Shown here: in pieces, positions 5,585 through 24,212 of the stretch
Numbering within the stretch: the first letter of the stretch is position 1
Layout: the number at the start of each line of letters is the position of its first letter
Assembly: GCA_021775615.1 (NCBI GenBank)
Contig: JAJFHL010000308.1
Coordinates: forward strand, 1-64,000
DNA length: 64,000 nucleotides
Direction of reading: 5' to 3'
Source of the DNA: Hyphomicrobiales bacterium
Lineage (GTDB): Bacteria > Pseudomonadota > Alphaproteobacteria > Rhizobiales > JAJFHB01
Translations under genes and position numbers: made by a program
The notes under the pieces: generated by a model
Seen by the model: the letters and a program-made list of their open reading frames with translations, nothing else
Told to the model about the DNA's origin: nothing
The model's database searches: none

Positions 5585-7654
5585 ATGACCCCAGCAAACA
5601 GCGCGGCTTCGGCCACGACCGACGTGTCGGCGAGCGAACCGTCCAGCATCGATCATCTTAAACACAAGAAGATGGCCGATGCCATCCGCGTCCTCTCCAT
5701 GGACGCGGTTCAAAAGGCGAAGTCTGGCCACCCGGGCATGCCGATGGGCATGGCCGATGTCGCCACGGTTCTGTTCACCAAGTTCATGAAGTTCGATCCG
5801 ACCGAACCGGACTGGCCGGACCGGGACCGTTTTGTTCTGTCCGCCGGCCATGGTTCGATGTTGCTCTATTCGTGCCTCCATCTGCTCGGCTACGAGGACA
5901 TCACTCTGAAGGAGCTGCAGAACTTTCGGCAGCTCGGGTCCAAGACCGCCGGTCATCCCGAGTACGGACATGCAGCAGGCATCGAAATGACCACCGGGCC
6001 GCTCGGCCAGGGCATCAGCACCGCGGTCGGCATGGCGCTCGCCGAACGGTTGACGAACGCGAAGTTCGGCGACGATGTTGTCGACCACCGGACCTATGTG
6101 ATCGCCAGCGACGGCGACCTGATGGAAGGGATCAGCCACGAAGCCATTTCGTTCGCCGGCCATCTTCAGCTCTCCAGGCTGATCGTCCTGTTCGACGACA
6201 ACGGCATCTCGATAGACGGCCCCCTGGATCTTGCCGAATCCGGCGATCAGTTGCACCGGTTCGAGGCGGCCGGCTGGGCGGTCAGCAGCGTCGACGGTCA
6301 CAACCCGGACGAAATCGCCGCCGCCATAGAGGCAGCTCAAGGATCGGACAAGCCTTCTCTGATCGCCTGCAAGACGACCATCGGCTATGGCGCACCAAAC
6401 AAGCAGGGCACATCCAGCACCCACGGAGCGCCGCTCGGCGAAGACGAGATCGCCGCGACCAGGGTTGAGCTCGGCTGGCCTCACGAAGCTTTCGACTTGC
6501 CGACCGAAGTGCGCGACGGCTGGCGCATCGCCGGCCTGCGCGGCTGCAAGGCGCACAAGGCCTGGCGCGACCGGCTCGACGGCATCGATGCGTCTGAGCG
6601 GGCCGAATTCGAACGGCGCAATGCCGGCGATCTGCCGGGCACGCTGAGCGGCGTCATCGCGCGGCTCAAAAAGGATCTGGCTGCCGAACAGCCCGCGGCC
6701 GCGACCCGCGTTGCCTCGCAACGGGTTCTCGATACGGTCAATCAAACGGTTCCCGAGACCATCGGCGGATCGGCCGACCTTACCGGCTCGAACAACACAA
6801 GATCGGACGGCATGAAGGCGATCGGGGCCGGCGATTTCGCGGGACGATTCATTCACTATGGCATCCGTGAGCACGGCATGGCGGCAGCCATGAACGGCAT
6901 GGCGTTGCATGGCGGCGTGATCCCCTACTCTGGAACATTCCTGGTGTTTTCCGACTACTGCCGGCCGTCGATCAGGCTGGCGGCATTGATGGGGCTGCGG
7001 GTCATCCACGTCATGACCCACGATTCCATCGGTCTCGGCGAAGACGGCCCGACGCACCAGCCCGTCGAACATCTTGCGGCGCTGCGCGCCATCCCCAATC
7101 TGCAGGTCTTTCGCCCGGCAGACGTGACGGAGACCGCGGAATGCTGGCAGCTTGCGCTCGAATCGCACACCACGCCAAGCGTACTGGCGCTGACCCGGCA
7201 ATCGCTGCCGTCCCTGAGAACCGATTACAGCGAAGACAATCTGTGCGGACGCGGTGCCTATGTGATCGCCGACGCCAACGGCGATGCCGAGGTGTCGCTG
7301 TTCGCCTCCGGCTCCGAGGTTGAGATTGCGGTCGCCGCAAAGCAGGCGCTGGACGCCGCCGGCCACCCCGCCCGGGTGGTGTCGGTGCCCTGCATGGAAC
7401 TCTTTGCGCTGCAGGCCGACGCCTACCGCGAGGACGTTATCGGCGATGCGCCGGTCAAGATCGGTATCGAGGCGGCGATCCGCATGAGCTGGGATCCGAT
7501 TATCGGCTCGGACGGCATCTTCATCGGCATGAGTTCGTTCGGAGCCAGCGCACCCCACAAGGAACTCTACCAGCATTTCGGCATCACCGCGGAGGCGGCG
7601 GTCGCCGCGGCCCTCGACCAACTGAAATCAAACGAACAAGGCGACAACAGCTAA
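5585..7654 (+). CDS. tkt: Transketolase
   Basis: Transketolase moves two-carbon ketol units between sugar phosphates with thiamine diphosphate, linking the pentose phosphate pathway with glycolysis or the Calvin cycle. The 689-residue protein shows the N-terminal [16 protein letters not shown] block, with the conserved His at residue 49. The ThDP motif is read as [13 protein letters not shown]. The pyrimidine domain ([12 protein letters not shown]-like) and C-terminal domain follow. The start at 5585 (MTPANS) was chosen; the conserved region begins about 30 residues later at [12 protein letters not shown]. It is the first gene of a tkt-gap-pgk-fba cluster. Confidence 0.95.
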
Positions 7655-7719
7655 CCCCATCATCGAGCGATGGCGGCCATAGTCATAACGCGGCACTTTG
7701 TCCACGAAGGAGAACAAGC

Positions 7720-8724
7720 ATGACTGTTCGGGTAGCGATCAACGGATTCGGCCGTATCGGCAGAAACATCCTGCGCGCCGTCTCGGAATCGAAGCGCAAC
7801 GACATCGAAGTGGTGGCGATCAACGACCTGTGCTCCTACGAAACCGCGGCGCACCTGTTCAAGTATGATTCGGTCCACGGCCCCTTTGACGGCACCGTCT
7901 CCGTCGACGGCGACGGCTTCGATATCGGCTCCGGCAAAATTTCATGCCACTCCGAGCGCAATCCCGCCGACCTGCCGTGGGGCGATCTGGGGATCGATGT
8001 CGCTCTCGAATGCACCGGCTTTTTTGCATCAAAGGAAAAGGCCTCCGCCCATCTCGATGCCGGCGCGAAAAAAGTGCTGGTTTCCGCACCCGCGAGTGGC
8101 GCCGATCTCACTGTCGTCTATGGCGTCAACCATGACCAGCTCGGCGGCGGCCACACGGTGGTCTCGAATGCATCGTGCACCACCAACTGCCTGGCGCCGG
8201 TGGCCAAGGTGCTGAATGACTTCTGCGGCATCACCCGCGGCTACATGACAACCATTCACGCCTATACTTCCGACCAGCGCCTGCTCGACACCGACCATCC
8301 CGACCCGCGGCGCGCCCGCGCGGCGGCGCTGTCGATGATCCCGACATCGACCGGTGCGGCGAAAGCCGTCGGCCTGGTTCTGCCCGAGCTCGCCGGCAAG
8401 CTGGATGGCACGGCCATTCGCGTCCCGACGCCCAACGTCTCCCTGGTCGATCTGGTGTTCGTGCCGGGCCGCGAGGTCAGTGTCGATGACGTCAACCAGG
8501 CGATCACCGACGCCGCCAACGGTCCGTTGAACGGCATTCTCGAAACCAACGACGAACCACTCGTCTCGACCGATTTCAATCACCGCGCGGCCTCCTCCAC
8601 TTTCGACCTGACCCAGACACAGATCGTCGACGGCGGTCTGGTGCGGGTGGTCAGCTGGTACGACAACGAGTGGGGCTTTTCCAACCGCATGAGCGACACC
8701 GCGGTCTATATGGGTGGTCTCTAG
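7720..8724 (+). CDS. gap: Glyceraldehyde-3-phosphate dehydrogenase, type I
   Basis: This enzyme interconverts glyceraldehyde-3-phosphate and 1,3-bisphosphoglycerate. The 334-residue product has the Rossmann start [10 protein letters not shown]. An Asp at residue 36 is typical of NAD preference, and the catalytic cysteine C153 lies in [12 protein letters not shown]. The AYTSDQ and SWYDNEWG-type motifs are intact. It lies 65 bases after tkt and 24 bases before pgk, so it is in the same operon. A single Gap can serve glycolysis and gluconeogenesis. Confidence 0.97.
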
Positions 8725-8748
8725 CTCCGGATCAGTGCAACGCAAGCC

Positions 8749-9993
8749 ATGGCTGCCTATCGCACGCTCGATGACGTCGACATCCGCAACAAGCGGATCG
8801 TCGTGCGTGTCGATCTCAATGTTCCCTTTGATAACGGTGAGATATCAGATCTGACGCGCATCGAACGTGTCGTGCCGACGCTGAAGGAACTGCTGCGGTC
8901 CCGGGCGACTGTGGTTGTGCTGTCCCATTTCGGCCGGCCGAAGGGCAAGGTCGTTGCGGACATGTCCCTGAAACCGGTTGCCGACGCCCTGGCCGCCGCA
9001 ACCGGGCACCATGTCACGTTCGTTCCAACCGACTGGCAGGACAACAAAGGCGCCCTTGCCGCGATGGAAAGTCTCGGACCCGGCGCGCTGATCCTGATGG
9101 AGAACACCCGCTTCCATCCCGGCGAGGAGGCCAACGATCCCGCTTTTTCGCGCCAGCTTGCCGAACTGGGTGACATCTATGTCAACGACGCCTTCTCCGC
9201 CGCTCACCGCGCCCATGCCTCGACCGAAGGCATCGCCCACCACATCGAGGCGGTGGCCGGACGGGCGATGGAAGTCGAACTCGACGCCTTGAGCCGGGCC
9301 CTGGACGCCCCTGAGCGGCCTCTTGTTGCCGTTGTCGGCGGGGCGAAAATTTCAACCAAGCTTGAGCTTCTGGGCGCACTGACCGTCAAAGTCGACCAGT
9401 TGATCGTCGGCGGCGGCATGGCCAACACGTTCCTGGCGGCACAGGGAAAGCCCGTTGGCAGGTCGCTGTGCGAGCATGACCTCTTGGACACCGCACGCGA
9501 CATACTGCAGGGCGCCGGCCACAACGGCTGCGAAATCGTCCTGCCCCGCGATGTCGTGGTTGCCGAAAGCTTCGAGGCACGTGCGCCGCACCGCACCGTC
9601 GGCGTAGACGACGTCGGGCCGGGAGACATGATCCTGGATGCCGGCGCGCAATCGATCAGCGATATCGAGCGCATCTTCTCCGGTGCGAGGACCTTGGTCT
9701 GGAACGGTCCTCTGGGCGCATTCGAGCTGCCCCCCTTCGACACCGGCACCAATGCCGCCGCACAGGCCGCCGCCCGGCTCTGCAAGGCCGGCAAGCTGTT
9801 GGCTGTGGCAGGCGGAGGTGATACGGTGGCGGCACTCAATCATGCCCGCGCGGCGGACGACTTCACCTACATATCAACAGCCGGCGGCGCATTTCTCGAA
9901 TGGCTGGAAGGCAAGGTCCTTCCTGGGGTATTGGTATTGCAAAAAGCGCACGCATCGGGTGCGACCGAGCTGAATCTGGAACAGGCAAAATGA
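8749..9993 (+). CDS. pgk: Phosphoglycerate kinase
   Basis: Pgk transfers the acyl phosphate of 1,3-bisphosphoglycerate to ADP. The 414-residue protein has the N-domain substrate motifs VDLNVPFD and SHFGRPKGK, then VGGAKISTKLELL and a C-terminal nucleotide-binding segment (VWNGPLGAFE, then AGGGDTVAAL). The length is slightly above the common 390-400, as is usual for alphaproteobacteria. Its TGA overlaps the ATG of fba by four bases, indicating coupling. Confidence 0.97.
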   Translation: MAAYRTLDDVDIRNKRIVVRVDLNVPFDNGEISDLTRIERVVPTLKELLRSRATVVVLSHFGRPKGKVVADMSLKPVADALAAATGHHVTFVPTDWQDNKGALAAMESLGPGALILMENTRFHPGEEANDPAFSRQLAELGDIYVNDAFSAAHRAHASTEGIAHHIEAVAGRAMEVELDALSRALDAPERPLVAVVGGAKISTKLELLGALTVKVDQLIVGGGMANTFLAAQGKPVGRSLCEHDLLDTARDILQGAGHNGCEIVLPRDVVVAESFEARAPHRTVGVDDVGPGDMILDAGAQSISDIERIFSGARTLVWNGPLGAFELPPFDTGTNAAAQAAARLCKAGKLLAVAGGGDTVAALNHARAADDFTYISTAGGAFLEWLEGKVLPGVLVLQKAHASGATELNLEQAK

Positions 9994-11009
9994 CCGAACA
10001 TCTGCACGATATCGCCCAGGCCATGGTGGCCCGGGGCCGTGGAATTCTCGCCGCCGACGAGAGTTCAGGTACCATCAAGAAGCGGTTCGACACCATCGGC
10101 GTGGACTCGACCGAAGGCTCCAGACGGGACTATCGCGAAATGCTGTTCCGTTGCACCGACGCCATGAAGGACAGCATCTCCGGCGTCATTCTGTATGACG
10201 AGACGCTGCGTCAGAAGGCGGCGGACGGGACCCCGATCGTTGACGTCATCCGCGCCAGCAACTCCATTCCCGGCATCAAGGTCGACACCGGCGCCAAGGA
10301 TCTGGCGGGCACGCAGGGTGAAAAGATCACCGAAGGCCTTGACGGTCTGCGCGAACGTCTCGCGGAGTACCACGACATCGGCGCACGCTTTGCCAAGTGG
10401 CGCGCGGTGATCACCATCGGCGCGGACATTCCCAGCTCCTATTGCGTGCACACCAATGCTCACGCGCTGGCACGCTATGCAGCGCTCTGCCAGGAACAGA
10501 ACATCGTTCCGATCGTCGAACCCGAAGTGCTCATGGACGGCGACCACTCGATCGAGCGTTGTTTCGAAGTCACCGAGTTTGTGCTCAATACGGTCTACGA
10601 CGAACTGTATTCCCAGAACGTCGCGCTCGAGGGCACCATTTTGAAGCCCAACATGGTTCTGTCCGGTATGGGATGCCCGGACCAGGCCGGTATTGACGAG
10701 GTGGCGCAGCGGACGATCACATGTCTCAAGCGCTGCGTGCCTGCCGCGGTTCCGGGCATATGTTTCCTGTCGGGCGGGCAGTCGGACGAACTGGCAACCG
10801 CCCATCTGTCTGCGATGAACGCGGCTTACGACATGCCGTGGGTCCTGAGCTTTTCTTATGGACGCGCACTGCAGGCCGCGGCCCTCAAGGCCTGGGCGGG
10901 GAAAGCCGAAAACGTTCCCGCGGCTCAGACCGCCTTTTCTCACCGCGCCCGCATGAACGGACTTGCGGCAACGGGCCAATGGTCGGCAGAGCGGGAACAA
11001 GCCGCATAA
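9990..11009 (+). CDS. fba: Fructose-bisphosphate aldolase, class I
   Basis: This enzyme cleaves or forms fructose-1,6-bisphosphate (and possibly sedoheptulose bisphosphate) through a Schiff base rather than a metal. The class I type is shown by ILAADESSGTIKKRF near residues 18-32 and by the Schiff-base lysine K219 in ILKPNMV. The 339-residue length fits. The start was set at the ATG overlapping the pgk stop. A hairpin at 11058-11075 may end the operon. Class I aldolase in this operon, rather than the metal-dependent class II, is a feature of rhizobia. Confidence 0.95.
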   Translation: MTEHLHDIAQAMVARGRGILAADESSGTIKKRFDTIGVDSTEGSRRDYREMLFRCTDAMKDSISGVILYDETLRQKAADGTPIVDVIRASNSIPGIKVDTGAKDLAGTQGEKITEGLDGLRERLAEYHDIGARFAKWRAVITIGADIPSSYCVHTNAHALARYAALCQEQNIVPIVEPEVLMDGDHSIERCFEVTEFVLNTVYDELYSQNVALEGTILKPNMVLSGMGCPDQAGIDEVAQRTITCLKRCVPAAVPGICFLSGGQSDELATAHLSAMNAAYDMPWVLSFSYGRALQAAALKAWAGKAENVPAAQTAFSHRARMNGLAATGQWSAEREQAA

Positions 11010-14366: not shown

Positions 14367-14439
14367 TCATCACTGCAACACCAATGGGTACTATCCCCGC
14401 CGGCACCCGGCTTCGCGCTCGCACAGGAAAGTTGCAATC

Positions 14440-14455
14440 AATTTGTGTACAAATT
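14440..14455. promoter_or_regulatory. Palindromic candidate operator upstream of the B12-MerR gene
   Basis: AATTTGTGTACAAATT consists of 7-bp perfect arms around a GT spacer and contains the hexamer TGTACA. It lies between a TTGCAA (14432-14437) and a TTTATG about 17 bases later, the usual position of a MerR-family operator, and 85 bases before the start of the MerR gene. TGTACA-type sites are known for CarH/LitR regulators. Autoregulation is an inference. Confidence 0.45.
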
Positions 14456-14539
14456 TTATGCAGAGTAACCGAATCACTGTAAACGTCTGAAAACAAAATA
14501 AAGATCTGACAGGGCCGAACAACGCTTGAAAGCGAGGCC

Positions 14540-15451
14540 ATGAGCAATACTCCTCCGGACGCCCTGTATTCCATCAAGACCGTGTCTCGTCTGACCGGTG
14601 TGAATTCCGCCACCATACGCTCATGGGAACGCCGCTACGGACTGATGGAACCGGCCCGGGCGCCCAATGGCAGGCGCGCCTACTCCGAAGCCGACATTCG
14701 CAAGCTTCGGCAGATCTCGGATCTGGTGCGTTCCGGTCATCCGATCGGCGAAATCGCCGGCCTGGCAACAGAACTTTTGCAGGAGCTCCAGGAGAACTCT
14801 TCGCCGCGGCCGCACAGCGCCGCCCGAAACCCGGCATACGACAAGTTGATGATGGCGGTATCGGCCGGTGACACTTCGCGGTTTCGTTCCGTTCTCGGCC
14901 AGACATTGAACAACCTTGACCCCCTGGAGGCAGTACAGGACGTCATTGCACCGGCGCTTCGCGAGATCGGAGAACGATGGGCGCGCGGCGATGTCGGCAT
15001 TGGCCTCGAGCATGCGCTGTCCGCGATCACCAAACAACTGCTGATGTCATCGATCAACTCCATGCGATGGGCAACCGGCGGCCCACGGATCGCGATCGCG
15101 ACACCGCCGAATGAACAGCACGAGCTCGGCGCCCTTTTGGCCTACTATCTGGCGTCCACCTTTGGAGCGGAATGCACCTATATGGGCCCGAACATGCCCG
15201 TGGCTGCCCTGGCCGACGCGATCGCCAGTCTGAACTCACAGGCTCTGGTGCTCAGTCTCATTCGAGAGCGTGACGATACCGATGCGATCGCCCTGCTCCG
15301 TGAGATCTCCGAACAGGTTCCCGCCTCGACCCAGATCTGGCTTGGAGCCGGCCGCCATGCGTCGCTCCGCACCGAACTTCTGCCGGAGCGCATCACCCTC
15401 TTCGACAGTTTCGAACCCTTCCTGGTGCGCCTCACTGCCCTGACGAAGTGA
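14540..15451 (+). CDS. MerR-family regulator with cobalamin-binding domain, CarH/LitR-like B12 photoreceptor
   Basis: The 303-residue protein has an N-terminal MerR helix-turn-helix (about residues 10-78, TGVNSATIRSWERRYGL). A helical bundle follows (about 96-175) and then a B12-binding Rossmann domain (about 180-300). It holds the marks of adenosylcobalamin photoreceptors: the W-x9-EH motif (W147, E157, H158) and the E-x-H-x-x-G motif (E192, H194, G197) that supplies the lower axial ligand. Known relatives are repressors released by light, controlling carotenoid or other light-response genes. No such genes are next to it here. A palindrome with TGTACA precedes it. Confidence 0.88.
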   Translation: MSNTPPDALYSIKTVSRLTGVNSATIRSWERRYGLMEPARAPNGRRAYSEADIRKLRQISDLVRSGHPIGEIAGLATELLQELQENSSPRPHSAARNPAYDKLMMAVSAGDTSRFRSVLGQTLNNLDPLEAVQDVIAPALREIGERWARGDVGIGLEHALSAITKQLLMSSINSMRWATGGPRIAIATPPNEQHELGALLAYYLASTFGAECTYMGPNMPVAALADAIASLNSQALVLSLIRERDDTDAIALLREISEQVPASTQIWLGAGRHASLRTELLPERITLFDSFEPFLVRLTALTK

Positions 15452-15606: not shown

Positions 15607-16290
15607 GTGTTTGTAAACTCGTTGCACTCCAAACGACATTTCATAACCCGGCGGATCGATGCCATTCTGCCATTGGCCGCTTGCACCGCGCTGGCGCTTG
15701 GCGCAATGCCGGCAGCGGCTGAAAACCCGATTCAAGTGGACGACCGCATCGTCGTCGCCCAGTCCACGGCCGGGTTTCCGGTCAGGGCAGGCTCGTGGGG
15801 CGGCAAGGTACGCGCCGGACCCGGACGGCAATACCAGCATATCGATGGCCTGAGCGAAGGCGAAGACGTGGTGCTGCTTGAGAACACCCGCGTAATGATG
15901 GGCGACTATCCGTGGTTCAAGATCCAGTTCAAGAACGGCCGCATAGGCTATAAATGGGGTGGCATACTATGCGCCAAGGGAACTCCGGTCGTCGGCATAT
16001 TCGAATCCTGCCCGGGCTGGCAGAATGCCGCCCAGCCCGATCCGGCACCCGCCTCGGTGACCGTATCCTACTCCTGCGAAGAGGGCATTCCGATGATCGT
16101 GCGATATGTCAATACGGCGGAAACCAGCACCGCTTACTTCTCGCATGACAGCTTCCCGGAAGTGAAGCTGGACCAGGTGGTGTCGGGATCGGGGGCCAAA
16201 TATTCGAACGGATACTATACCTTGTCCACCAAGGGTCCCGACGCGGTGCTCGAATGGGAAGGCACCACAAGCGTTTGCTCGGAAAATTGA
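15607..16290 (+). CDS. Secreted SH3b + MliC-like protein, possible lysozyme inhibitor
   Basis: The 227-residue protein starts at a GTG and has a signal peptide (about residues 18-39, ending AMPAAA). A bacterial SH3 domain follows (about 55-125, with VRAGPGRQYQHIDGLSEGE). The C-terminal domain (about 150-225) reads VSYSCEEG...SGSGAKYSNGYYTLSTKG..AVLEWEG, which matches the MliC/PliC C-type lysozyme inhibitor fold, including paired cysteines. MliC proteins block host or competitor lysozyme in the periplasm; SH3b domains bind peptidoglycan. The match is by eye. The next gene is another secreted protein, 16 bases on. Confidence 0.75.
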   Translation: MFVNSLHSKRHFITRRIDAILPLAACTALALGAMPAAAENPIQVDDRIVVAQSTAGFPVRAGSWGGKVRAGPGRQYQHIDGLSEGEDVVLLENTRVMMGDYPWFKIQFKNGRIGYKWGGILCAKGTPVVGIFESCPGWQNAAQPDPAPASVTVSYSCEEGIPMIVRYVNTAETSTAYFSHDSFPEVKLDQVVSGSGAKYSNGYYTLSTKGPDAVLEWEGTTSVCSEN

Positions 16291-16306
16291 CAGGAACAGA
16301 CCGTAA

Positions 16307-17779
16307 GTGAGGCACACCGTGACTGATTTCCATTTCTCCAGGCCGTCCAGGTTCTTGCTGGCGGCCATCCTCTGGCTTGCCGTCTTCGCCGGCCACACAC
16401 CATTCGCCGCCGCACAGGACGCCGACCTTGTCTGGCAGTTTGACCAGTCCAACGATCCTTCCAACAAGGGCCGCAGCACCGCCTATCTGACATTCGGAAT
16501 TCCCGAGACCGATGCGGTACTGGTCAGCGGCTCCTGCGCCGCCGGATCCAGCGGCAATTTCTCCGTCATCCATCTTGGCGCAGACGTCGGAAAGCTGGCC
16601 GAGAGCGCCAGGGTGAAAGTCCGCTTCTCCGGCGGCGGCGAAGAGCACACGCTGAAGGGCGTTGTTTACGGCACCGAGCTCGAAGAGGGAGTTTCCGGCG
16701 TTCTGCTGCACATCGCCAATGACGATCCCATCTGGGCCATGATGCAGAACCTTGACGACATCAGCTATCAGATCCCCGGATACAGCGCCGCGTCGCTGCG
16801 CCTCACACAAGGCCGTGACAAAATCGCCGAGTTCAACGAGGCCTGCCGGTTTTATGCCGCACAGTTTGCCGACAATACTGACGACACTTCCCAGCAAAGC
16901 CCACCCGGTGGCGGCATCACCGAGAAGGAGGCGTTCCAGGCTGCGAGGGACCTGGGGACGATAGAAGCCTGGCAGGCCTTCCTGAGCAATTTCCCGACCG
17001 GTTTCCGGGCCGATCTGGCGCGCGCCTACCTCAAGGAACTGGGCGGCGCGCCGGTTGACAATGCCAACAACACCGACACCGGCAATACGGCGAACACCAA
17101 CAACCAGCCTCCGACCCAGGCGCCGGAACAGACCGTCGATCTGGGAGCGGGAACCTCACCGTGGCGCAATTACAACATGGAGATGGATGAGGGCAACACG
17201 ACGGTCTATGCGGCCTCGGTCGAATCCAACGGCATCGAGTTTGTCGCCTACTGCACCGGCAGGAAGGATATCGGCGCCCTCATGCGGGAAAGCCAGCGCG
17301 GCGTCTATCCCGATTTCGACGGACGCATCGAGCGCGGCCTCAAGGCGGCGCTGGGCACATTTCAGGACTTCAACAACGCGCACATCCCCATGCGGTTCAA
17401 TAATGGCAGTGAGTATTATGTGACCGCGGCCGTCATGGGTCTCACCGGCGAGGTCAGCTTCATCCACAATGATGAGGGCTTCCGCGCAAACGGACGGATT
17501 GTTCAGGACATCATGGGCCGCAGCACCATGACCATTTCCGCCCCGCCCTTCTCGGCCACGTTCCAACTGCGCGGCAGCAGGAACGCCATGTGCTCCATGC
17601 TGCGCAACTGCGGCGTGAGCGTCCAGGGCTGCGCCCGCCGGCAGAACACGACCAACACCTCTCGCTGCGGCTCCGGCGCGGTCTGGCTGGAAGGCCAGTG
17701 CGTCAATTATGGCGACATCGAAGCCTTTTGCGGGCCGGGCTACAAGCGCCAGGGCGCGGTGTGCGTATCGCGCTATTAG
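16307..17779 (+). CDS. Secreted Cys-rich protein of unknown function, probably cut short by an amber codon
   Basis: A 490-residue protein with a signal peptide (about residues 14-37, ending AAAQ). I do not recognise a named family over the full length. An N-terminal beta-rich domain (about 40-195) comes first. A short helical segment at about 205-245 (EAWQAFLSNFPTGFRADLARAYLKE) resembles segments found beside bacterial caspase-like proteins. An Asn/Thr/Pro-rich linker (about 250-275), a second domain (about 280-435) and C-terminal Cys repeats (CGSGAVWLEGQCV, CGPGYKRQGAVCV) follow. The TAG at 17777 interrupts a third repeat that continues in frame for 21 codons. Confidence 0.7.
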   Translation: MRHTVTDFHFSRPSRFLLAAILWLAVFAGHTPFAAAQDADLVWQFDQSNDPSNKGRSTAYLTFGIPETDAVLVSGSCAAGSSGNFSVIHLGADVGKLAESARVKVRFSGGGEEHTLKGVVYGTELEEGVSGVLLHIANDDPIWAMMQNLDDISYQIPGYSAASLRLTQGRDKIAEFNEACRFYAAQFADNTDDTSQQSPPGGGITEKEAFQAARDLGTIEAWQAFLSNFPTGFRADLARAYLKELGGAPVDNANNTDTGNTANTNNQPPTQAPEQTVDLGAGTSPWRNYNMEMDEGNTTVYAASVESNGIEFVAYCTGRKDIGALMRESQRGVYPDFDGRIERGLKAALGTFQDFNNAHIPMRFNNGSEYYVTAAVMGLTGEVSFIHNDEGFRANGRIVQDIMGRSTMTISAPPFSATFQLRGSRNAMCSMLRNCGVSVQGCARRQNTTNTSRCGSGAVWLEGQCVNYGDIEAFCGPGYKRQGAVCVSRY

Positions 17780-17845
17780 GAAACAGAAGCCCAGTGTCCG
17801 CAAGGCCTCGTCTGGGAAGTGGACCGCTGCGTCGAGGACGACTGA
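17780..17845 (+). other. In-frame continuation after an amber codon (third Cys repeat)
   Basis: After TAG (17777-17779) the same frame stays open for 21 codons to a TGA at 17843-17845. It encodes CPQGLVWEVDRCV, a third copy of the two repeats just upstream (C-x2-G-x2-W-x4-CV). The terminator hairpin begins 15 bases after this TGA. This suggests the ancestral gene ended at the TGA and the TAG is a nonsense change, a read-through site or a sequencing error. Confidence 0.65.
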
Positions 17846-17860
17846 CGCTCGAGAGATCTT

Positions 17861-17898
17861 GCCCGGCGCACAGATGTAATGCGCCGGGCATGGTTTTG
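17861..17898 (+). terminator. Rho-independent terminator
   Basis: A perfect 10-bp GC-rich stem, GCCCGGCGCA (17861-17870) with TGCGCCGGGC (17880-17889), has a 9-base loop and is followed by ATGGTTTTGTC. It ends the transcript of the two secreted proteins. Confidence 0.75.
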
Positions 17899-18046
17899 TC
17901 ATAATTTCAGGTAAGTAGTACTGATGTGCTGCGTGCATCCTGTTCGCGGTGCCCAAGAATTTGCTTTTTGAAGGCCTGCACTCTGTCGTATCAACACCAA
18001 ACCGTTGAGTTCGAACTGATTCGCAACACTTCACGGGAATCGGGTT

Positions 18047-19105
18047 GTGGATATGACCACTGACTCTCAATATACCGTCCTGGTGCCGCCGCGCCTCTAT
18101 CTCGCCCGCATGATTGTTTTTCTGATCCTGGTCGGATTCATCGCGGCAATTCTCTACTCACAGATCATTCAGGCCTTTATTGCCAATCCGGGGCTGAACG
18201 GGCTGATTCTGGGTGTCCTGCTTTTGGGCATCGCCTATGCCTTCCGCCAGATCTTCCGGCTGTTTCCCGAGGTCAACTGGGTCAACAGCTTCCGCATCGC
18301 CGATCCGGGCCTGGAAATCAACCATACGCCGGTTCTGCTGGCCCCCATGGCAGCGCTCCTGCGCGACCGCCAGGGGCGCATGTCCCTGTCGACCCTGTCC
18401 ATGCGATCACTGCTGGAATCGCTGGCCAGCAGGCTCGACGAGGCGCGCGACATCTCGCGCTACATGATCGGGCTCCTGATATTCCTCGGCCTGCTCGGAA
18501 CCTTCTGGGGGCTGCTCAACACCGTCACCGCGGTCGGCGCCACCATCGAGTCCCTCGATATCTCGCAAAACGAGAGCGGGGCTGTCTTCGAGGAGCTCAA
18601 GACCGGCCTCGAAGCGCCGCTCGCCGGCATGGGCACCGCCTTCTCGTCATCGCTGTTCGGCCTTGCCGGATCTCTGGTGCTTGGCTTCCTCGACCTGCAG
18701 GCGAGCCAGGCTCAGAACCGGTTCTACAACAATCTCGAGGACTGGCTGTCCACGGTCACCGACATCTCGGCCGGAGAAGGCGGCGACTACACGGTTCCCC
18801 ACTATCTGCGTATGGACCTGCGCGACATGCAGGGTCAGATAGAGCGCATAGACAGCACGCTGCACGAGACGATCACCGCCGAACCGGACGACCCGGTTGA
18901 CATGGAGGCGATCGAACTCCTCGCCGACGCGGTGCACGGGCTGGTCAAGCAGATGCGCGAAGAGCAAAAAGTCGTGCGGCAATGGGCCCAGGCCCAGGCC
19001 GACCAGCAGACCGAGTTCAGGTCTGTGCTTGAGAAGCTGGCCGAAAACAAGGAGCCGGCGGCGCGCAAGGCGCCGCGCACGAGAGCAAAGAAGGTTGAAA
19101 GCTGA
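18047..19105 (+). CDS. MotA/TolQ/ExbB-like proton-channel family membrane protein
   Basis: The 352-residue protein has two N-terminal membrane segments (about residues 20-42 and 50-70). A cytoplasmic region (about 75-140) and two more segments follow (about 142-165, LLIFLGLLGTFWGLL, and 190-218). The tail is soluble, helical and Lys-rich. The arrangement and the GLLGTFWGL motif place it in the MotA/ExbB family of ion-driven stators. A GTG at 18047 or the ATG at 18053 may be the start. Its stop is 3 bases before the OmpA-like gene, so the two are a pair. No flagellar or TonB genes are nearby; the role is unknown. Confidence 0.82.
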   Translation: MDMTTDSQYTVLVPPRLYLARMIVFLILVGFIAAILYSQIIQAFIANPGLNGLILGVLLLGIAYAFRQIFRLFPEVNWVNSFRIADPGLEINHTPVLLAPMAALLRDRQGRMSLSTLSMRSLLESLASRLDEARDISRYMIGLLIFLGLLGTFWGLLNTVTAVGATIESLDISQNESGAVFEELKTGLEAPLAGMGTAFSSSLFGLAGSLVLGFLDLQASQAQNRFYNNLEDWLSTVTDISAGEGGDYTVPHYLRMDLRDMQGQIERIDSTLHETITAEPDDPVDMEAIELLADAVHGLVKQMREEQKVVRQWAQAQADQQTEFRSVLEKLAENKEPAARKAPRTRAKKVES

Positions 19106-19108
19106 TCC

Positions 19109-20137
19109 ATGGCCATAGCCAGACGCCAGCGCCGCCCAGCGGATGCCTTTTACTGGCCCGGCTTCGTCGACGCCATGGCAACGCTGCTGCTGGTCATCAT
19201 CTTCCTGTTGTCGATTTTCATGCTGGTGCAGTTCATGCTGGCGCGCGACATCTCCGGCCAGGACACAGCGCTCACTCGGCTGCGCTCGCAGATCGCCGAA
19301 CTCTCCGAGCTTCTGGCGCTTGAGAAGGTTTCGTCCTCCGAGCTGCAGACGACGCTCGCCAGCCTGGTCGATGAACTGGCGACAGCCGAAGACGAAAAGA
19401 ACCGGGTAACCGGACTGCTCGCGACCGAGCGCGGCAACGCGAATGAAACCGGCGGGCGCCTTTCAGCGCTGGAGGGCAAGCTGGCGGAAGAGAGGACGAT
19501 CCGCTCTCAGGCCCTCGCCCAGGTCGAGCTTCTCAACCAGCAGATTGCCGCACTGCGCCGCCAGCTTGGCGCTCTGCAGGCCGCGCTCGACGCGTCGGAA
19601 ACCCGCGACACCGAGGCCCAGTCGCAGATCGAGGACCTTGGCCGCCGCCTCAACGCGGCCCTGGCCCAGCGCGTCCAGCAACTTGCCCGCTACCGCTCGG
19701 AGTTCTTCGGCAAGCTGCGCGAGATCCTGAGCCAGCGCTCCGACATCCAGATTGTCGGCGACCGCTTCGTGTTCCAGGCCGAGGTGTTCTTCGCCACTGG
19801 CGAAGCCGACCTCAATCCGCAAGGACAGAGTGAGCTCGACAAGCTTGCGACCGCCCTAACCGAACTTCAGGGCATCATCCCTGACGACATCAACTGGGTG
19901 CTCCGCATCGACGGCCACACGGACAATGTGCCGATTCAGACTGCGCCCTTCCCGTCCAACTGGGAGCTTTCAACGGCGCGCGCCATCTCCGTGGTGCGTC
20001 ATCTGATCGACAATGGCGTGCCTGCCAAGCGCCTGGTCGCCGCCGGCTTCGGCGAATTCCAGCCACTGGAACCGGGCAACACGATTGATGCCAGACGCAA
20101 GAACCGCCGCATCGAACTGAAGCTGACCGAGCGTTGA
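19109..20137 (+). CDS. OmpA/MotB-like peptidoglycan-binding membrane protein
   Basis: A 342-residue protein with a single N-terminal membrane helix (about residues 18-42) carrying an acidic residue at its start (D21 in FVDAMATLL), like the proton-carrying Asp of MotB and ExbD. A long coiled coil (about 50-195) follows. The C-terminal OmpA domain (about 210-340) contains IDGHTDNVPI and the NRRIELKL end that grips peptidoglycan. With the preceding MotA-like gene it forms a stator-like unit in which proton flow could be coupled to the cell wall. Function has to be inferred; it is not a flagellar motB by context. Confidence 0.85.
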   Translation: MAIARRQRRPADAFYWPGFVDAMATLLLVIIFLLSIFMLVQFMLARDISGQDTALTRLRSQIAELSELLALEKVSSSELQTTLASLVDELATAEDEKNRVTGLLATERGNANETGGRLSALEGKLAEERTIRSQALAQVELLNQQIAALRRQLGALQAALDASETRDTEAQSQIEDLGRRLNAALAQRVQQLARYRSEFFGKLREILSQRSDIQIVGDRFVFQAEVFFATGEADLNPQGQSELDKLATALTELQGIIPDDINWVLRIDGHTDNVPIQTAPFPSNWELSTARAISVVRHLIDNGVPAKRLVAAGFGEFQPLEPGNTIDARRKNRRIELKLTER

Positions 20138-20975: not shown

Positions 20976-23900
20976 CTAGCGGGCGCCCTCGCCCACGACC
21001 ATGAACGGCGCCCAGTAGGCGGGATGCGATTTCTGCGGATCGCCGCTCTCGATCAGCGTCAGCATGGACCGGCGCAACGCTTCGGCGCGGCCAATTTCCG
21101 GGTTGGCTTCGAGCTGGGCGAAGGTCTGCGTTGTCAGTTCCACCGCTGCCTGCGAATTGACCGGCCAGTGCGAGACGAGCAGTGAACGAGCCCCGGCATA
21201 GAAGAAGGCGCGCGCCAGTCCGGAGAGTGCTTCCGCATTGCCGTTTTCGCCGGCCGCCGTGTTGCAGGCCGATAGAACCACCCAGTCCGCATCGAGCTTG
21301 AGCTGGGCAACCTCCGACGCGGTGAGCAGTCCGTCATCGTCTTTGCTCGCCTCGTCAGGCGGGGTGAGAACCAGGGCGGGCTCCGCCAGCCCGTTCAGTT
21401 CGCCGGTGACAAGCCCGTGTGTGGCGAAATGGACGACACGGTAATTCGACAGGTTGTCCGCTTCATTCATTGCCTTGATCGCCGCCTCGGTCGCATTGGC
21501 GCCAAGCAGTATCTCGCTCTGCGGCGCTCCGAGACTGCGAGCGACACCACACAACTCGCCCGTGGTTTCGGGAAGTGGTGACAGATGCCGGACCTTTTCG
21601 GCATCCGCCTCAACACCGCGAAAATAGCTGGCGATCGTCTCGGCTCCGCCACCGCTTGCGATGTGGAAGCGTCCGTCCCAGTCAGCACAGCTCTTTACCC
21701 GGAAGGCGCTGTCGTCTGACCCGCTTGCACCCTTGAGCAGCGGATTGCCGAACCCGATGAAGGGGTGTTCGGCATTGCTGGCCTTGGCGTTCCGCCGCAA
21801 TGCGGCAAGCGAAGCCACAGAGGGCAATACGGTGATCGCGTGATCACGCACCAACCATGCCGCGTCGGCGATGCCGCCTGTCTGGTCACCGTCAGGGCCA
21901 GGTGCCTCGCTCACCAGAACCTGCCACGGCAGTGACGTGAGCGGCCCCGAAGGTACGATGATCAACTCCTTGCCCTTTATGATGCTCTCGACCGGACCCA
22001 ACAGCTGTGCATAGAGATCGAAGGCCGCTGCGAACAGGCCGACATCATCGCCGGCTGAGCTGATCGCTCCTCTTGTCCGGTCAATTCCGAACCCGCTGCG
22101 CAAGACGCGTATTTTCTCCGCAAGCGCCTTTGAACCTGCAGGTATGCGAGCCCATTTGATGCCGCTCCTGGACAACGCCCAGACAAAACTCTCCTCCGGT
22201 ACCGGGCCGGTCTCCTGCACATCGAGAAAGAACACCAGCGCCTCGTTGCCGCCCAGGAGTTTCTGAGCCGTTGCCAGCGCGAGCGGCTCCGGATTGGTGA
22301 GCGTGGAATAGTCGCGAAAATCCGTTGCAAGCGTGCGGTCGATGGCTGCGGCGCGATTGTTGAATTCGGACATTTTCAATTGCAAGGCCGCAACAAGATT
22401 CCTATCACGCTCGCCGACCGGCTTGGAAATTGCGGCAATCAGCTGCTGGTGTGCCGTTTTCCAATTGCTGGCGAGGTCCTGTCGTTCGCGCACCAGATCA
22501 CTTAGCGACGATTTGTCGGCCTGCAGCCGCGTTGCCATTTGGGCAAGAGCCCGCGCGGCACGCGATGCCTGTGCACGCTGTGCCAGCCTGAACGCTTCGT
22601 CCCTCAAACCATCACGTTCGTCCGTATCGGCATCAGCGAGGTGCTTGAGCACACGTACCGATCCGTGAAAAGCTTGGCGCATCGACGCTGCAGCGGACGG
22701 GCCTTCGGCGGAAAGTGGGTTTGAGTGAGCATCTCCGAGGGTCGCATCCTCAGCGATCAGGACTTCGGCTGCGCGCCGGAAATGTATAAGGGCCGCCGCC
22801 CAGCGTTTGCGAAAAAGTTGGTTGTAAGCCAGATTGTTCAGGCTGTTCGCGAGCCCCGGGTCGGTCTCGCCGAGAACATTTTCCCATATGGCAAGGGCGC
22901 GCTTCAACAAGTCCCCGGCCTTTTCACGGTGGCCTTGATCGCCGTAAACAAGTGCAAGATTGTTCAGAACCTGTGCAACATTCGGGCTGTCCGGACCGTA
23001 GGTTGTTTCGACCGCGCTAATCGCACGCTGCAGGAGTGATTCCGCCTCGGCAAGACGTTTCCGCTGACGATAGAGTTCGGCGAGGCTAATCAGACCACTG
23101 ACCATGTCCTCTGGAGCCTTTGCTTCGTAGATGGCTAGGGACTGCTTGAACATCGACTCCGCGTCCCGATAGCGGAGCTGCGCCCAGTAAGCCACGGCCA
23201 GTTCGTGGATGCTTGCGGCAACGGCGAGGTGGTTGGAGCCCTCCGACGCCTTGAGGATCTCGACGACACGCTCGAGCATAGCCGTGGAGACTTCATGCTT
23301 TCCCTGCCGCCGGTAAATTTTGGCCATGTCGATGAGGATCACTCCCACCCTCTGGTCTTCGGCGCCAACCGATTCCTCCAGAATTCCAAGAGCTTGTCTG
23401 AGCAGAGGCTCCGCCTCCGCGAACCTTCCTTGTTCATTGTAGAACAGGGCGAGGTTGCGAAGTGTCCTCGCGACCTCCACATGGCGCTTCCCGGATGCAT
23501 CTTCCCGCGCCGTCACGGCATATCGATAGAACTGCTCGGCCTCACGCTTACGGTTTTGGCCACGGTAGATGTTCGCGAGTATGCTCACTGCGACTGCCAG
23601 TTCATGCTTGTTCGGCCCGGTAGCGTTTTCCCAGGTCGTGACGGCACGCTTCTGAACCCGCGCTGCCTTGTCGTCCGCCTTCTGCATGTAATAGACGTAG
23701 GCCAGGTCCTCGAGACTCCGCGCGAGGTCGGGATGCGGCTCGGAATAAACGAGTTCGTGAATTTCCAGTATGCGTTCAAGCAGCGGTTCAGCCTGGTGGT
23801 ATTGACGCCTGGTGATGTAGATGTCGCCGAGCGCGTCTAGTGTCGCCGCGACCAACCTATTGTTCTTGCCGAGCGCCTTCTCGCGGATCGAAAGCATACG

Positions 23901-24212
23901 CTTGAGCAGTAGGATTGCCTCACGCTGATCGCCGTAACTAAGCAACAGCTCGACAACCACACCAAGCGCGTCCGCATAATCCGTGTGTTCCGTTCCCAAT
24001 AGGGTGCCGACCAGATCGGCATGGCGTCTGGCCAGCGGCAGGGCATCTGAAATCCGGCCCTGTTCACGCAGGTCAGCTATTTGTTCGGACAGGGCAACTG
24101 TTTCTTCAGCCTGCCGTTGCGTGAAGAACTCGGCCGCAATCCACAGAAGAGCCGCTGCAACAGGCAAAATGAGAAATGCCAAAAACCTGTGTGATGCGAG
24201 AAAATCAATCAT
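20976..24212 (-). CDS. Membrane-anchored TPR-CHAT protein (predicted caspase-like protease)
   Basis: The 1078-residue protein starts with one membrane helix (about residues 9-28). Many 42-residue TPR units of the kinesin-light-chain type follow (about 60-480), then a helical linker, and a C-terminal CHAT domain (about 720-1075). The caspase-type catalytic pair is intact: H932 in HFATHG and C983 in LSACNTAAG. CHAT proteins are clan CD cysteine proteases, some of which act in stress, defence or controlled proteolysis. No gasdermin, CRISPR or NTPase partner lies beside it. It is convergent with the SDR gene, 9 bases apart. Confidence 0.9.
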   Translation of the reverse strand: MIDFLASHRFLAFLILPVAAALLWIAAEFFTQRQAEETVALSEQIADLREQGRISDALPLARRHADLVGTLLGTEHTDYADALGVVVELLLSYGDQREAILLLKRMLSIREKALGKNNRLVAATLDALGDIYITRRQYHQAEPLLERILEIHELVYSEPHPDLARSLEDLAYVYYMQKADDKAARVQKRAVTTWENATGPNKHELAVAVSILANIYRGQNRKREAEQFYRYAVTAREDASGKRHVEVARTLRNLALFYNEQGRFAEAEPLLRQALGILEESVGAEDQRVGVILIDMAKIYRRQGKHEVSTAMLERVVEILKASEGSNHLAVAASIHELAVAYWAQLRYRDAESMFKQSLAIYEAKAPEDMVSGLISLAELYRQRKRLAEAESLLQRAISAVETTYGPDSPNVAQVLNNLALVYGDQGHREKAGDLLKRALAIWENVLGETDPGLANSLNNLAYNQLFRKRWAAALIHFRRAAEVLIAEDATLGDAHSNPLSAEGPSAAASMRQAFHGSVRVLKHLADADTDERDGLRDEAFRLAQRAQASRAARALAQMATRLQADKSSLSDLVRERQDLASNWKTAHQQLIAAISKPVGERDRNLVAALQLKMSEFNNRAAAIDRTLATDFRDYSTLTNPEPLALATAQKLLGGNEALVFFLDVQETGPVPEESFVWALSRSGIKWARIPAGSKALAEKIRVLRSGFGIDRTRGAISSAGDDVGLFAAAFDLYAQLLGPVESIIKGKELIIVPSGPLTSLPWQVLVSEAPGPDGDQTGGIADAAWLVRDHAITVLPSVASLAALRRNAKASNAEHPFIGFGNPLLKGASGSDDSAFRVKSCADWDGRFHIASGGGAETIASYFRGVEADAEKVRHLSPLPETTGELCGVARSLGAPQSEILLGANATEAAIKAMNEADNLSNYRVVHFATHGLVTGELNGLAEPALVLTPPDEASKDDDGLLTASEVAQLKLDADWVVLSACNTAAGENGNAEALSGLARAFFYAGARSLLVSHWPVNSQAAVELTTQTFAQLEANPEIGRAEALRRSMLTLIESGDPQKSHPAYWAPFMVVGEGAR

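Follow-up and report, generated by a model that had tools for sequence, protein, structure and literature searches.

Is a CarH-like regulator with no photoprotection gene at its side a B12-dependent light sensor, and what does it control? Regulators of the CarH/LitR type are known for their control of carotenoid, photolyase, and related photoprotection genes. The question arises from an open reading frame (14540-15451, forward strand) in the window, a stretch of 64,000 nucleotides from a Hyphomicrobiales bacterium. The initial annotation described its product as a MerR regulator with a complete CarH/LitR photoreceptor signature and proposed a light-dependent switch outside the usual carotenoid context, an interpretation that our results partly support.

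The window protein is a relative of CarH

The reading frame encodes 303 aa and starts, as described initially, with a MerR-type HTH DNA-binding domain (residues 10-76, 14567-14767, forward strand; Pfam MerR_1, E=1.6e-16). This domain is followed by a four-helix cobalamin cap (residues 101-168, 14840-15043; Pfam B12-binding_2, E=8e-11), whose helices are present in the structural model, and by a Rossmann cobalamin-binding half (approximately residues 182-302, 15083-15445). The latter received no call in the Pfam search of the 303-aa protein and was recognized from the alignment with Thermus thermophilus CarH (TtCarH) and from the alternating strands and helices of the model. The order of MerR HTH, B12-binding_2, and Rossmann half is the class I CarH/LitR architecture and is shared with TtCarH.

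TtCarH (PDB 5C8D/5C8E/5C8F, 3WHP) is the best match in both sequence and fold. Its structure 5C8D is the closest solved relative by sequence (E=4e-31), with around 25% identity in the structural alignment. The AlphaFold model, computed with 16 homologues as input, has a mean pLDDT of 87, and CarH chains rank first among its Foldseek matches. Superposition of the cobalamin domain on CarH gives a TM-score of around 0.8 by target length, while full-length superpositions have a high rmsd, so that the model does not give the orientation of the HTH relative to the cobalamin domain. The protein scores 136 bits with the NCBIfam equivalog model of CarH (NF052513), far under the cut-off of 400 bits, and should thus be regarded as a relative of CarH and not as a CarH equivalog. 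In summary, it is a genuine relative of this vitamin-B12 light sensor and, in itself, looks like an ordinary representative of a known family. We found no sigma-70-like promoter or terminator around the gene.

The protein has few close relatives. Apart from its own genome, 2 of 60 relatives contain a full-length match (35-38% identity), and in the order a match with E<=1e-15 occurs in 16 of 398 genomes, a count that includes the window genome. A scan of genome contigs returned one named orthologue, in a Hyphomicrobiales MAG, and three Streptomyces HTH matches. In the maximum-likelihood tree, the window protein falls in a clade of the order with 16 rows (97/94) and, within it, in a subclade of 7 rows (96/95).

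Cobalamin contacts are kept, and the light-switch histidine is replaced

The alignment with TtCarH places all the residues named initially where they were expected: W147 (TtCarH W131; 14978-14983 with the following Ala148), E157-H158 (E141-H142; 15008-15013), and E192, H194, and G197 (E175, H177, and G180) in the lower cobalt ligand loop N191-E192-Q193-H194-E195-L196-G197 (15110-15130; signature in PMC11796333), all on the forward strand. Both cobalamin contacts, W-x9-EH and E/D-x-H-x-x-G, are therefore present in the protein. Together with G144 (TtCarH G128), the residues W147, E157, H158, H194, and G197 are invariant across 16 aligned alphaproteobacterial sequences, so that the motif is no chance match. 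Judging from the sequence and the model, the window protein very probably binds AdoCbl, and its predicted CarH-like action is well supported.

The signature is nevertheless not complete. Ala148 occupies the position of His132, which is the upper cobalt ligand of TtCarH in the light state, and the bis-His switch is thus missing. A histidine at this position is found in none of the sampled relatives that keep the other motifs. The signature published for light-responsive cobalamin-binding domains comprises GxxW, EH, GxxH, and GxxxP (PMC11796333); the window protein keeps GxxW, EH, and GxxxP, and has Asn191 in place of the glycine of GxxH (TtCarH Gly174). As this glycine contributes a main-chain carbonyl in the crystal structure (PMC11796333), its replacement may be harmless. 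A third difference from TtCarH concerns the dimer-interface pair R176/D201, which is Q193/N218 here.

The consequences of lacking His132 differ between studies. The TtCarH mutant H132A binds AdoCbl, forms a normal tetramer, and stays mostly tetrameric after light (PMC10442372), whereas an earlier study observed its disassembly in light, a conflict described in the same work. CtMerR of Chloracidobacterium thermophilum (PDB 8JBS/8JBT), a MerR-CBD protein with 22% identity to the window protein in the structural alignment, also lacks this histidine; it has an arginine where the window protein has an alanine, and passes from a tetramer in the dark to a monomer in the light (PMC11796333). Hence, light sensing by the window protein is possible, and we regard its predicted light-dependent release of DNA as plausible. 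Ala, Ser, Glu, Gln, and Leu all occur at this position in natural relatives, which are material for the study of light release without a bis-His switch.

Relatives are recurrently divergent from chemoreceptor genes

Of the 21 alphaproteobacterial loci in the tree, 13, from six families, have the regulator divergent from a gene that encodes a methyl-accepting chemotaxis protein (MCP). Within the 16-row clade these are loci L038, L039, L058, L106, and L110-L116. The arrangement also occurs at two less close regulators, L041, whose genome belongs to the family of the window genome, and L042. The MCP of L058 and L106 runs off the contig and was recognized from its sensor part; the gap between regulator and MCP is around 600 bp in L106. 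Another locus (L117) has an adjacent MCP on the same strand as the regulator, and five (L108, L109, L118, L119, and L120) have one within 1.8-3.6 kb. In one genus (L109:5065-11607, with a matching region in L108), the regulator is flanked by a PAS hybrid histidine kinase on one side and by a gene resembling di-haem cytochrome c peroxidase/MauG on the other. Four of the six members of the 7-row subclade other than the window have a divergent MCP. The 64-kb window itself has no MCP gene, even though the tree places its regulator in the clade.

We compared these frequencies with two controls. Among 17 beta/gamma-type relatives from a sample of the phylum, only L124 has a divergent MCP, and L130 has one upstream on the same strand. 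In another of these relatives, L126, the regulator adjoins a photolyase gene, which is a known LitR setting. None of 20 non-B12 MerR genes of the order has an MCP within around 4 kb. The genomes of these loci have between 8 and 36 MCP matches each, under 1% of the genes by a rough count, and with the result for ordinary MerR genes this rules out a high MCP density as the cause of the pairing. The sensors of the paired receptors are TarH/4HB, dCache, PAS pairs, or none that we could recognize. It is thus the pairing that is conserved, and not one particular receptor.

The L042 locus (6603-7958 and 8234-10489) deserves mention for its composition. The gene after the regulator encodes a BLUF protein (E=3e-26), the MCP gene is divergent, and between regulator and MCP lie three tandem 11-bp repeats of the form TnnACM (TAAACC-N5-TAAACA-N5-TAAACC, p=0.016 against shuffles). 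The BLUF gene is an independent hint at light and results in two photoreceptor types beside one chemoreceptor. From these comparisons, we infer that the usual job of the clade would be to control the adjacent chemoreceptor gene through a divergent promoter that both genes share. This suggests, without proving it, that the branch lets light or B12 adjust cell navigation. Our literature search, which covered few subscription papers, returned no report of CarH or LitR linked to chemoreceptors. If regulators of this kind are repeatedly paired with divergent chemoreceptors whose sensor types are unrelated, the scope of B12 photoreception would widen to include behavior. The family being known, the pairing is the new element, and it is the partner genes of its clade that make the window protein a variant worth testing.

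A candidate operator precedes the gene

CarH operators are tandem 11-bp repeats of nnnnTnnACAn (PMC9304148). Upstream of the window gene, we find a likely candidate of this type on the forward strand, TGTACA-N5-TATGCA (14446-14462), made of one exact repeat and one TnnGCA. Its p-value is 0.11 with the strict motif TnnACA and 0.028 with the relaxed motif TnnRCA, which was loosened only after the relatives had been inspected. A third, weak repeat, CAATCA, is found at 14435-14440. The candidate overlaps the site pointed out initially at 14440-14455, AATTTGTGTACAAATT, which is a real palindrome with perfect 7-bp arms. Alone, a palindrome of such size in an AT-rich intergenic stretch is unremarkable.

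Relatives have similar repeats. We found two perfect TGAACA repeats with 11-bp spacing in L039 (p=0.024) and in L107, on the contig of L058 (p=0.008), and TGTACA-N5-TGTACA in L114 (p=0.006). With the relaxed motif, all members of the clade with a divergent MCP except L038 reach the perfect two-repeat score, each with p around 0.02-0.05. Outside the clade L041 also reaches it (0.046), and L042 does not (0.31).

The genome search suggested for the palindrome returned a single exact copy, its own, in 6.26 Mb, and the copies with two mismatches that we inspected show no shared function. One of them (C314:26499) lies around 170 bp upstream of a paralogous regulator on contig C314, and another (C300:10380) precedes a dCache MCP on contig C300 by 153 bp. 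These placements are only suggestive because AT-rich palindromes concentrate between genes. Similar palindromes are used by GntR-type regulators. Given these look-alikes and the lack of a common function, we dropped the palindrome as a general marker of the regulon and kept it only at the two regulators and the one MCP.

A genome-wide search for the three-repeat operator gave no match. Operator-like repeats were absent from the crtB cluster and upstream of the 14 MCP genes examined in this genome, and the single operator-like matches elsewhere fall within the genes of interest or far from them. The class II LitR of Pseudomonas (PplR, PmlR2) are MerR regulators of the same family with TGTACA in their sites (PMC9758184), but the second B12 domain is missing from them, and LOV proteins control their activity. 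The spacing of the half-sites differs as well, two TGTACA being 12 bp apart against 5 bp at the window. Inspecting by eye, we found no TGTACA-N12-TGTACA upstream of the window gene.

B12-related and photoprotection genes elsewhere in the genome

We found four B12-binding_2 matches in the genome: the window gene, the C314 regulator, an open frame of 863 aa that from its length may be MetH, and a frame of 240 aa. It also encodes a protein of the cobalamin adenosyltransferase family. The C314 regulator (L040:18669-19553; contig C314 from about 26668) is a second CarH-like protein, 30% identical to the window protein, with intact W-x9-EH and EQHELG and a Gln at the His132 position. Two relatives of this paralogue (L119:7845-8735 and L120:7691-8581) have lost W131, H142, and G180; from their sequences, they are probably B12-blind and CarA-like.

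No crt or photolyase gene lies beside the window regulator, as had been noted. However, the genome encodes a photolyase on contig C30 and a phytoene synthase with an adjacent lycopene-cyclase-like gene on contig C330 (names assigned by reading the translations), both away from the window gene. Being outside the carotenoid context is therefore true of the locus and not of the organism. The dCache chemoreceptor of contig C300 (L052:5381-7765; C300:10380 and 10533) shares 48% identity with the MCP that accompanies the L041 regulator.

Proposed mechanism and alternatives

We favor, at about even chances, a dark-binding, AdoCbl-dependent, self-repressing regulator of the CarH/LitR type with release in light, whose clade controls chemoreceptors. 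AdoCbl would be held between the four-helix cap (W147, E157-H158) and the Rossmann domain, with H194 as the lower cobalt ligand. In the dark and with AdoCbl bound, the protein would oligomerize and bind the repeats at 14435-14462 before its own gene, leading to self-repression. Green or blue light would then break the Co-C bond, loosen the oligomer, and release the DNA. CarH binds its repeats in the dark, and some members of the myxobacterial CarH/CarA group act as dimers (PMC9304148). With Ala148 in place of the His132 ligand, a bis-His light state would be precluded, and the state formed in light would rather resemble that of CtMerR. As the linkage to a chemoreceptor is absent in the window genome, other targets of the protein would be unlinked.

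Several observations favor this reading: the domains, fold, and AdoCbl contacts are TtCarH-like and the genome encodes an adenosyltransferase-family protein; a residue other than His at 132 is the rule among relatives, and CtMerR responds to light with an arginine; chemoreceptors are divergent in 13 of 21 loci, one of which has a BLUF neighbor, against 0 of 20 controls; and CarH-like repeats occur at L042, L039, L107, and L114 and, more weakly, at 14446-14462 of the window. Against it stand the replacement of His132, of the GxxH glycine, and of R176/D201, the mostly tetrameric H132A mutant of one study, the window operator that passes with the relaxed motif only, the low equivalog score, and the absence of a chemoreceptor from the 64 kb. 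A more tentative proposal, which we think may well fail, is that this CarH branch of Hyphomicrobiales and other Alphaproteobacteria is a light- (and B12-) dependent switch of chemoreceptor transcription, the window protein having its target elsewhere, e.g., the C300 dCache MCP. If true, illumination would change the chemoreceptor set of the cell, and a B12 photoreceptor would act on motility slowly, by way of transcription.

The intact AdoCbl contacts and the loss of the light-switch ligand would also fit a sensor of AdoCbl levels, which would bind DNA at high levels of coenzyme B12 and in which light has no physiological part. The H132A mutant, which binds AdoCbl normally and mostly fails to become monomeric (PMC10442372), is in line with this idea. 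We consider it unlikely, given that CtMerR and other proteins without His132 respond to light (PMC11796333), and that a BLUF gene lies beside one relative and a photolyase gene beside one beta/gamma relative. It is more doubtful still that the protein is a B12-independent, CarA-like regulator whose pocket is a relic and which obeys a partner protein or another ligand. Such a loss has precedents: L119 and L120 miss core residues, the Pseudomonas class II LitR work without B12 via a LOV partner (PMC9758184), and the myxobacterial CarA, which like CarH of myxobacteria controls carotenoid operons, does not require B12. Yet, the core AdoCbl residues of the window protein are intact and invariant among the 16 aligned sequences, and we hold this option to be improbable.

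The protein could also have lost an ancestral chemoreceptor partner and control little beyond itself. The divergent MCP of four of the six other subclade members, with none in the 64 kb of the window, points in this direction, and so does the absence of operator-like repeats at the crtB cluster and before the 14 MCP genes. On the other hand, the reading frame is intact and retains all core residues, and two-mismatch palindromes precede the paralogous regulator and, by 153 bp, the C300 dCache MCP. We think that such an orphan autoregulator is rather unlikely.

Other genes of the window

Four genes follow the regulator on the forward strand (15607-20137). They encode a 227-aa MliC-domain protein with a weak SH3_3 match, two proteins of 490 and 352 aa for which Pfam gave no match, the second of them reading like a membrane protein of the MotA/TolQ type, and an OmpA-domain protein. 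Further on, the reverse strand (20976-24212) encodes a protein of 1078 aa that combines many TPR repeats with a CHAT (caspase-like) domain at the C terminus.
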